From Hymenobacter citatus (GTDB taxonomy: Bacteria > Bacteroidota > Bacteroidia > Cytophagales > Hymenobacteraceae), in the NCBI RefSeq assembly GCF_014333615.1, contig NZ_JACSCY010000004.1, positions 124,001 to 188,000 of the forward strand: a stretch of DNA of 64,000 bases, written 5' to 3'. The translations under genes and the position numbers were made by a program. Below are positions 20,823 to 23,079 of the stretch, piece by piece (within the stretch, counting starts at the first letter, position 1; each line of letters opens with the position of its first letter). Under the pieces are notes generated by a model. The model was given only the letters and a program-made list of their open reading frames with translations, searched no databases and was not told the DNA's origin.

Positions 20823-21106
20823 AGGACAGGTAAAACCGGTAGGGGTAGTAGAAGTTTCAGCTCTTTAGCCTAACAGCAGAAAGATAGATAGCCAACGAAA
20901 AGTGATGATGTGAGTAAGAGCGAAGGGTTTTTGGCAGTTAAATAATATGCCGTAGTATTTATTGAACAAAATTTGATAATCCCTGAAAAAATCAATTGTG
21001 GCGTAGCATTTGTAGTAGCGCAAGAGGGTAGATTTGGCGAGGTAGAATAGCTGATGACCACATTTATAAGACTGTAACCCCTTCCTTTCAACATACTTTG
21101 GCGCAT
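20823..21106. other. AT-rich intergenic region between divergent queD and the 21107 gene
   Basis: 284 bases of AT-rich sequence that must hold both promoters. I see no gene: minus-strand frames here have no recognisable similarity and one runs into the 21107 gene. Confidence 0.5.
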
Positions 21107-21814
21107 ATGAAACGAAGCCTACTCCTCTCTTTTTTACTATTGGCGTTGACCGTTGTAGGATATGCTCAACGCTCACCCGTAGATGAAACCGAAATGGCTG
21201 TGAAGGGCATTCCCCGCAAAGGCCAACGCGTAACGGTGCAGTTGGACAACAAGCGGGTAGAAGATGCCTGGGCCAAACAATTAAACGAAAAGTTTGGTAG
21301 CAAGCTGAAAAACGATAAAGGTATTTACACGCTCGACGGCGTAGTAATTGAGGAAATATCCAAAACGCCTATTCGCGTAATCAGCAAAGTAGACGCCGCG
21401 CCTACCGGTACCGCCGTGTGGTGGTCTATCGACCTGGGCAACGCCTACCTAAGCAAAGAGTCGACCCCGGCACAGTGGAAAGCCTCGGAGGACTACCTGA
21501 AGACATTTGCCCGCATGCTCTACCGCCAGGATTTGGCCGTGCAGGTGCAAGAAGCCGAAAGAGCTTTATTGGCTTCGCAAAACAACCACAGCGCGGTAAT
21601 TTCCAAGCAGGATAACATCAAGAAAGACATCGAAAAGAACAAGGCGAAGAAAATAGAGATTCAGCAGCAGCTGGCGCAAAACGCCGCCGAACTGCTTAAT
21701 CTCAACAACCAGGTAGACATTAACCTGAAAGAGCAAGAAGCTGCTCGCGCCGATATTGTGAATATGCGCGTGGCCTTGGAGGCAGTGAAAGACCGCATGA
21801 ACAAGCTTGAGTAA
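21107..21814 (+). CDS. Secreted coiled-coil protein, unknown function
   Basis: A 235-residue protein with a signal peptide (MKRSLLLSFLLLALTVVGYAQ, cleavage after A-Q). The mature N-terminal half is a small mixed domain (AVKGIPRKGQRVTVQLDNKRVEDAW, then TAVWWSIDLGNAYLS). The C-terminal 100 residues, rich in Gln, Glu, Lys and Ala, are a long coiled coil. It is probably periplasmic. I use the ATG at 21107; a TTG three codons upstream is less likely. A strong terminator follows. Confidence 0.78.
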   Translation: MKRSLLLSFLLLALTVVGYAQRSPVDETEMAVKGIPRKGQRVTVQLDNKRVEDAWAKQLNEKFGSKLKNDKGIYTLDGVVIEEISKTPIRVISKVDAAPTGTAVWWSIDLGNAYLSKESTPAQWKASEDYLKTFARMLYRQDLAVQVQEAERALLASQNNHSAVISKQDNIKKDIEKNKAKKIEIQQQLAQNAAELLNLNNQVDINLKEQEAARADIVNMRVALEAVKDRMNKLE

Positions 21815-21893: not shown

Positions 21894-22499
21894 TCAATGC
21901 GTAGCTTCCTGCACCTGTTGTTGCGCAACTTGTTCATCCTTCCACCCCGCTACGCGCACACTTCCGGCAGTGGTGCCCGTTTGTCGGAACCACTGCTCCA
22001 GCATCGGCCGCACATGGGGGTAGTCTCGCTGGACTGCCGCCCACGTGGTAGCGCCGGGTAGGATGCGTAGACTTGGGCGTGCAGGCACTGCCAGGAGTAA
22101 CTGCCGGGGTGTACCAGCCTCATCGAGCCGCAACAGCGCTATAGGCAGAATCTCCAGCACGGTGCCGGCCGGCTGACTTTCGGCCAGGATAAGCGCAGCG
22201 AGGGGCTGGCCTTGGGGGTAGCGTTTGGTAGGAATAGTATGAGTACCGGGCACAAAAGCCAGATTGCCGGGGTAGGGCAGAAACTCCACTACGCGGTCGG
22301 TGCCGGCGCGCTGTACGCGGCGGAAGGTGCGCGTAGCAGGGTCATACTGCTGTATATGGTTGGTGCCAGCCGGAATTTCTACCACCGCCTGCAACAGATG
22401 GTGTTCAGTGGAGAAAGTTGGGAGGTCGGCGTAATCGGTGCGGCAACTGCATAGTAGACTCAGTGCGCCCAAAAAGAAGAAAAGAACGGGTACGCGCAT
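21894..22499 (-). CDS. Inorganic pyrophosphatase-like lipoprotein, probable pseudoenzyme
   Basis: A 201-residue lipoprotein (signal MRVPVLFFFLGALSLLCSC) whose mature part follows the family I soluble pyrophosphatase fold: QAVVEIPAGTN, DRVVEFLPYPGN, PLAALILAESQPAGTVLEILPIALL, DEAGTPRQLLLAVP, VAGWKDEQVA. Compared with E. coli Ppa, Glu20, Arg43, Tyr51 and the Asp97-Glu98 pair appear kept. Lys29, Glu31, Tyr55, the three metal aspartates Asp65/67/70 (here Gln, Gln, Ala in QGQPLA), Asp102, Lys104 and Tyr141-Lys142 appear replaced. Bacteroidota often encode pyrophosphatase-like lipoproteins, but loss of the metal site argues against hydrolysis here. The alignment was made by eye. Confidence 0.8.
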   Translation of the reverse strand: MRVPVLFFFLGALSLLCSCRTDYADLPTFSTEHHLLQAVVEIPAGTNHIQQYDPATRTFRRVQRAGTDRVVEFLPYPGNLAFVPGTHTIPTKRYPQGQPLAALILAESQPAGTVLEILPIALLRLDEAGTPRQLLLAVPARPSLRILPGATTWAAVQRDYPHVRPMLEQWFRQTGTTAGSVRVAGWKDEQVAQQQVQEATH

Positions 22500-22656: not shown

Positions 22657-23079
22657 ATGTCTTTTCATAAAGAGCCCAAAAACGATACCCAGCACCAAAA
22701 CCATTTGGATGGCACTACCAAAGTCCTGAACTCTGATTTGCAGGAAGAAGCTAACCGTGCCGGCTTGGATAACACCTTGCAAAACTGGATTCAGGACATT
22801 AAGGACGCTGACAATCCCGAGTTTCATCAGATTGTGACTGATTTGCAGGATCTGAAAGCGCACTTCGGCTCCGGCACGCTCGATAAGAGCACCATCAAGC
22901 GCCTGCTCAACCGGTTGGGCGAAAATACGGTGAAGGCAGCTGTATTCGCCGAAAACCCGAATACGGCCGAGCGCGTGACAAAACTAGGCGAAGCACTGCT
23001 AGCAGCTAGTAAGCAGGTGCAGAGCAATGAAAATACGCCCGCGCAAGACCTGGCAGAGGATTCTGCTACCAACAAATAG
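22657..23079 (+). CDS. Small soluble helical protein, unknown function
   Basis: A 140-residue, highly charged protein without signal peptide or membrane segment. The middle (residues 35-120) looks mainly helical: LDNTLQNWIQDIKDADNPEFHQIVTDLQDLKAHFGSGTLDKSTIKRLLNRLGENTVKAAVF. The ends are polar and probably disordered. Codon use is normal for the region, and it has a terminator of its own. No family recognised. Confidence 0.75.
   Translation: MSFHKEPKNDTQHQNHLDGTTKVLNSDLQEEANRAGLDNTLQNWIQDIKDADNPEFHQIVTDLQDLKAHFGSGTLDKSTIKRLLNRLGENTVKAAVFAENPNTAERVTKLGEALLAASKQVQSNENTPAQDLAEDSATNK

Follow-up and report, generated by a model that had tools for sequence, protein, structure and literature searches.

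The window, which is the whole 64,000-nucleotide stretch of DNA analysed here, encodes a lipoprotein with the predicted fold of a family I pyrophosphatase (PPase) but without the residues which such an enzyme uses for catalysis. The protein appears to belong to a monophyletic lineage found across the family Hymenobacteraceae. It is fairly likely that this lineage lost catalysis near the origin of the family and was co-opted for a structural or regulatory role in the cell envelope. For the lipoprotein itself, the evidence leans slightly toward a lipid-anchored pseudoenzyme which descends from an exported PPase, probably faces the periplasm, and is retained for a non-catalytic binding or scaffold job. 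The gene and its parts are as follows.

21894..22499, minus strand: putative pseudo-pyrophosphatase lipoprotein gene, 201 aa plus stop (translation, Pfam, fold, family-wide orthologs)
22443..22499, minus strand: type II signal peptide (residues 1-18) and lipobox Cys19, sequence ..SLLCSC; Cys in 93/93 clade members
21897..22424, minus strand: family I PPase-fold domain (residues 26-201); PF00719 match 38-200, VIA-align 21-201 to 2prd
22197..22214, minus strand: former metal loop (DGDPxD in E. coli), here QGQPLA, residues 96-101; from alignment, variable in the clade
22098..22121, minus strand: former D97..K104 segment, here EAGTPRQL, residues 127-134; from alignment

Fold and membrane anchor

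The lipoprotein frame, 22499..21894(-), is intact and its translation begins with MRVPVLFFFLGALSLLCSC-RTDYADLPTFS. The protein matches PF00719 with an E-value of 2.5e-13 and 50.5 bits, which is above the gathering score of 23.5, and its best PDB match in phmmer is the Thermus PPase 2prd (E 1.1e-5). The AlphaFold model, built from an 88-row alignment, has a pLDDT of 93.2 and a pTM of 0.87. It superimposes on 2prd with a Z score of 23.5 and an rmsd of 1.8 A over 163 residues at 23% identity (VIA-align, residues 21-201), and the top structural matches, as listed, are pyrophosphatases throughout. Therefore, the fold is predicted to be complete and the resemblance reflects homology rather than chance, which bears out the assignment to family I that the preliminary description had made by eye. 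The NCBIfam equivalog model for inorganic diphosphatase (NF002317) gives 25.7 bits, under its threshold of 200 bits, and so does not classify the protein as this enzyme.

The protein was also proposed to be exported and membrane-anchored. It has a type II signal peptide with the lipobox LCSC at residues 16-19, in which residue 19 is the lipid-bearing cysteine, as in a bacterial lipoprotein. The cysteine is present in all 93 members of the clade described below and in 17/17 of the tree's catalytically intact sequences. The surface-export signal of Bacteroidota, defined in other genera, is K-(D/E)2 or Q-A-(D/E)2 beside the cysteine (PMC5080379). This signal is absent from the window protein and two acidic residues at +2..+6 occur in only 6/93 clade members, although its calibration does not extend to Hymenobacter. 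The simplest reading is that the lipoprotein would face the periplasm.

Loss of the active site

An alignment of the window protein to E. coli Ppa and about 120 relatives, numbered by the E. coli enzyme, shows the metal ligands to be changed by D65Q, D67Q, D70A, D97E and D102R, and the phosphate-binding or catalytic positions by K29I, Y55L, K104L, Y141T and K142G. Two further active-site positions carry E31Q and E98A. The protein thus has 0/8 of the core catalytic set (Lys29, Glu31, Asp65, Asp67, Asp70, Asp97, Asp102, Lys104), and neither the metal aspartates nor Lys29, Lys104, Tyr141, Lys142 and Tyr55, by which a family I PPase is recognized as an enzyme, are present. The loss of the metal site and the replacement of K29, E31, Y55, D102, K104, Y141 and K142 had been claimed from the sequence, and the alignment restores none of the aspartates. 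Equivalents of E20, R43, Y51 and N54 remain. The first three had been listed as retained together with Asp97-Glu98, but this pair is lost, since the DE of the window's LDEAG lies one position off in a gapless alignment which is anchored on both sides. Among the clade members, an Asp at D97 is found in only 16%.

Compared with E. coli Ppa and Thermus 2prd, the window protein therefore shares the whole fold and the equivalents of Glu20, Arg43, Tyr51 and Asn54. It differs in being an exported lipoprotein, in the loss of the metal aspartates and the catalytic or phosphate-binding lysines and tyrosines, and in a lengthened loop ahead of the metal site. The same genome has a second, ordinary cytosolic Ppa with all of the residues (G000:C25:142441-142893). 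In the PPase of Acinetobacter baumannii the mutation K30R, at the equivalent of Lys29, is enough on its own to abolish activity (PMC6770254); therefore, it is very unlikely, judging from these replacements, that the window protein would be active as a pyrophosphatase.

An exported pseudoenzyme of this kind had been suggested to bind phosphate-containing ligands or to act as a scaffold. Binding of phosphate ligands by the old pocket is rejected as unlikely, because the phosphate-binding lysines and tyrosines (K29, Y55, K104, Y141, K142) are lost along with the metal ligands. The phosphate-ligand positions are also variable, and R43 is kept in only 47/93 clade members. A scaffold or binding role for the lipoprotein is plausible on the basis of its sequence. 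Conservation of the QGQ motif was considered as well and is rejected, since the loop varies even among close relatives, which have HGQ or QGE.

Distribution and origin

Orthologs of the lipoprotein are found in 148/204 Hymenobacteraceae genomes. These comprise 66/120 genomes of Hymenobacter, the genus in which the preliminary description had proposed to look for them, and 82/84 genomes of five other genera. PF00719 matches of any kind are present in 203/204 genomes of the family. Some genomes have three or four (G013-G016, G018, G023, G043, G100, G105, G118-G121, G123 and others), suggesting further family I PPase paralogs beyond the cytosolic enzyme and the lipoprotein.

The ortholog alignment contains 122 distinct sequences. 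In a tree calculated without the catalytic columns, the 93 Hymenobacteraceae sequences form one clade with an SH-aLRT support of 99. The loss of the catalytic set is common to all 93 orthologs: 0-2/8 core residues are kept in 86 members and 3-4/8 in the other seven. The highest retention includes the genomes of genus g2, where the loop reads GDEQPLD and D65, D70, D102 and K104 are kept as a partial site. The E-values and the same loss throughout the 93 orthologs argue that the missing active site is not due to chance.

As its closest outgroups the clade has exported relatives with 7-8/8 core residues, which come from Flavobacteriia, Saprospiria and other Cytophagales. The tree contains 17 such catalytically intact sisters, mostly exported PPases, and a class-level survey added 27 further relatives with 7-8/8 in 27/27. 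A lipobox is recognisable in many of the intact outgroup and class-level sequences, and the starts of some could not be placed. A distant sequence from a MAG (L030) has 4/8 core residues. The exported Bacteroidota PPases nearest to the clade in the tree (L123/L124, L017-L020, L125-L134) are about 25-37% identical to the window protein and share with it a signal peptide with Cys as well as EIPAGT and FLPYPGNYGFIPST-like motifs. Unlike the window protein, they keep DGDxxD and 7-8/8 core residues and lie in other gene neighborhoods.

Since there is a single dead clade and its outgroups have 7-8/8 residues, catalysis was probably lost around the base of Hymenobacteraceae. The seven members with partial sites leave some latitude in when and how often the losses occurred; the clade may have lost catalysis stepwise or repeatedly. 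The ancestor would have been an exported, catalytically complete family I PPase of Bacteroidota. Its metal- and phosphate-binding residues would have been lost around the base of the family, with a normal Ppa alongside, and the remnant with the PPase fold would have been retained since then for a non-catalytic job.

Selection and the former pocket

The preliminary description took the gene to be maintained. Purifying selection points the same way as the intact frame and the orthologs across the family: dN/dS (NG86) is about 0.11 among the window gene and its two nearest relatives, and 0.01-0.20 in 16/17 ortholog pairs, the remaining pair giving no value because of saturation. The old active site is set apart from the rest of the protein. 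In the clade, 15 active-site positions have a mean information of 1.78 bits compared to 2.74 bits for the domain (permutation p 1e-5; 5e-5 without the loop), whereas the catalytically intact group has 3.89 bits at the active-site positions and 2.67 bits at other positions. Therefore, the former active site seems to be the most relaxed part of an otherwise conserved protein, and the comparisons indicate that the gene is under purifying selection outside of it. With the active site gone and the remaining protein under strong selection, a non-enzymatic job is probable.

Several positions are invariant in the clade and not in the intact group (Q37, A65, P75, E116, R141-P142, W186 and E189). An N-terminal YxxLPTF segment behind the lipid cysteine is also fixed in the clade and not in the intact group. 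The conservation of proline, glycine, tryptophan and aromatic residues could be caused by fold stability alone. The lipoprotein would most likely be a folded platform at the envelope, perhaps oligomeric, which binds another protein or an envelope component via surfaces outside of the old pocket; protein binding or scaffolding is a guess at the job.

These data also bear on whether the pocket was remodelled, so that the protein, through neofunctionalisation, came to bind a ligand or to catalyze another reaction. The replacements are patterned, with V, I or L in place of K104 in 82/93 clade members and P in place of D70 in 43/93. E20 is kept in 85/93 and N54 in all, and Q37, E116, R141 and E189 are new conserved polar residues. 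However, conservation at the former active-site positions is among the lowest in the domain, which disfavors a new shared pocket at the old site, and no constellation with a catalytic look was recognized. A remodelled pocket is therefore the strongest of the alternatives to a non-catalytic binding or scaffold job and is still unlikely.

Gene neighborhood and the M1 peptidase

The locus has a syntenic order of rpsP-rimM-trmD-rplS, a 140-aa protein, an M1 metallopeptidase (PF01433), the lipoprotein, a coiled-coil protein, queD, folE, an SDR and a PBP. In most relatives the M1 gene lies between the 140-aa protein and the lipoprotein, and it is lost at the window locus, where the two immediate neighbors are as follows.

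21098..21814, plus strand: coiled-coil protein, convergent downstream neighbor; syntenic across the family, signal peptide, no Pfam family
22657..23079, plus strand: 140-aa conserved protein, divergent upstream neighbor; syntenic across Hymenobacter, no Pfam family

Assigning a function from the gene neighbors was rejected, since the synteny is with housekeeping genes only (rpsP-rimM-trmD-rplS, queD, folE) and no conserved neighbor is indispensable. The contexts of the intact relatives, whose neighbors were identified by reading sequences, are all different (ftsZ, an amidohydrolase, a LytTR regulator, a CBS-domain protein, an M14 peptidase) and gave no functional lead. A search for a promoter consensus upstream of the lipoprotein gene found nothing usable.

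The M1 peptidase encoded just upstream in most relatives suggests that the lipoprotein might be its dedicated adaptor, inhibitor or stabiliser. An M1 gene is upstream on the same strand in 60/91 loci, with a spacing of -20 to +28 bp in 39/56 measurable cases. A close M1 homolog is found in 59/66 lipoprotein-positive Hymenobacter genomes compared to 28/54 lipoprotein-negative ones, and at no examined locus does the M1 gene occur without the lipoprotein. What weakens this link is that the lipoprotein has outlasted M1 in several lineages. The lipoprotein is kept without M1 in the window clade, in L116, in the L009/L159-L161 group, in L075 and in all of the Pontibacter-type loci, where it directly follows rplS with a gap of 120-170 bp. 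The window's genome has no close M1 homolog anywhere, and dN/dS nevertheless remains about 0.11 in the window clade. The M1 peptidase may be a partner where it is present and is not needed for retention of the lipoprotein; a dedicated role is less probable than a remodelled pocket and seems doubtful.

The lipoprotein and the adjacent M1 gene were lost once, with the flanks intact, in a subclade of Hymenobacter which is represented by 19 genomes. Since this is a clean single loss, the lipoprotein is not essential in that subclade. In Hymenobacter qilianensis (L016/L120, G060:C1:2480082-2480608) the lipoprotein frame is in two pieces, due to either a frameshift or an assembly error, and the M1 gene upstream is shortened to 779 aa.

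The single loss and this split frame are what a decaying relic without function would predict. However, the frame is open in nearly all genomes, dN/dS is 0.01-0.20, the lipobox cysteine is present in 93/93 clade members and the gene is retained in 82/84 genomes of the five other genera, making decay highly improbable. The idea that the protein is still a pyrophosphatase with substituted ligands draws on the intact fold and on the members with 3-4/8 core residues (GDEQPLD in genus g2), but can be practically dismissed given that the window protein has no metal aspartates, Lys29, Lys104, Tyr141 or Lys142, that the replacements at the lost positions vary freely between species, and that the change at the Lys29 equivalent inactivates the A. 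baumannii enzyme.

Relation to known proteins

Few enzymes are as conserved and as well understood as the family I PPases. The lineage described here resembles pseudokinases and pseudophosphatases such as PTPRU, in which the fold is conserved, the active site is dismantled and the protein is kept under selection, but it differs from them in fold and compartment. Searches of open-access literature found no description of an exported or lipoprotein family I PPase or of a pseudo-PPase lineage, which does not prove that none exists, and the words "inactive" and "lipoprotein" are both absent from a 2024 review of microbial PPases.

Since complete sisters and partial intermediates (3-4/8) are extant, the lineage may serve as a clean natural experiment in the conversion of an enzyme to a non-enzyme. 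Annotation by PF00719 only would label these dead proteins as pyrophosphatases. The finding also points to the exported and apparently active PPases of Bacteroidota, on which no open-access publication was found. Such proteins, which have the complete active site of a family I PPase and in many cases a lipobox, are scattered over the phylum (L017-L020, L031, L123-L134, L182-L210).
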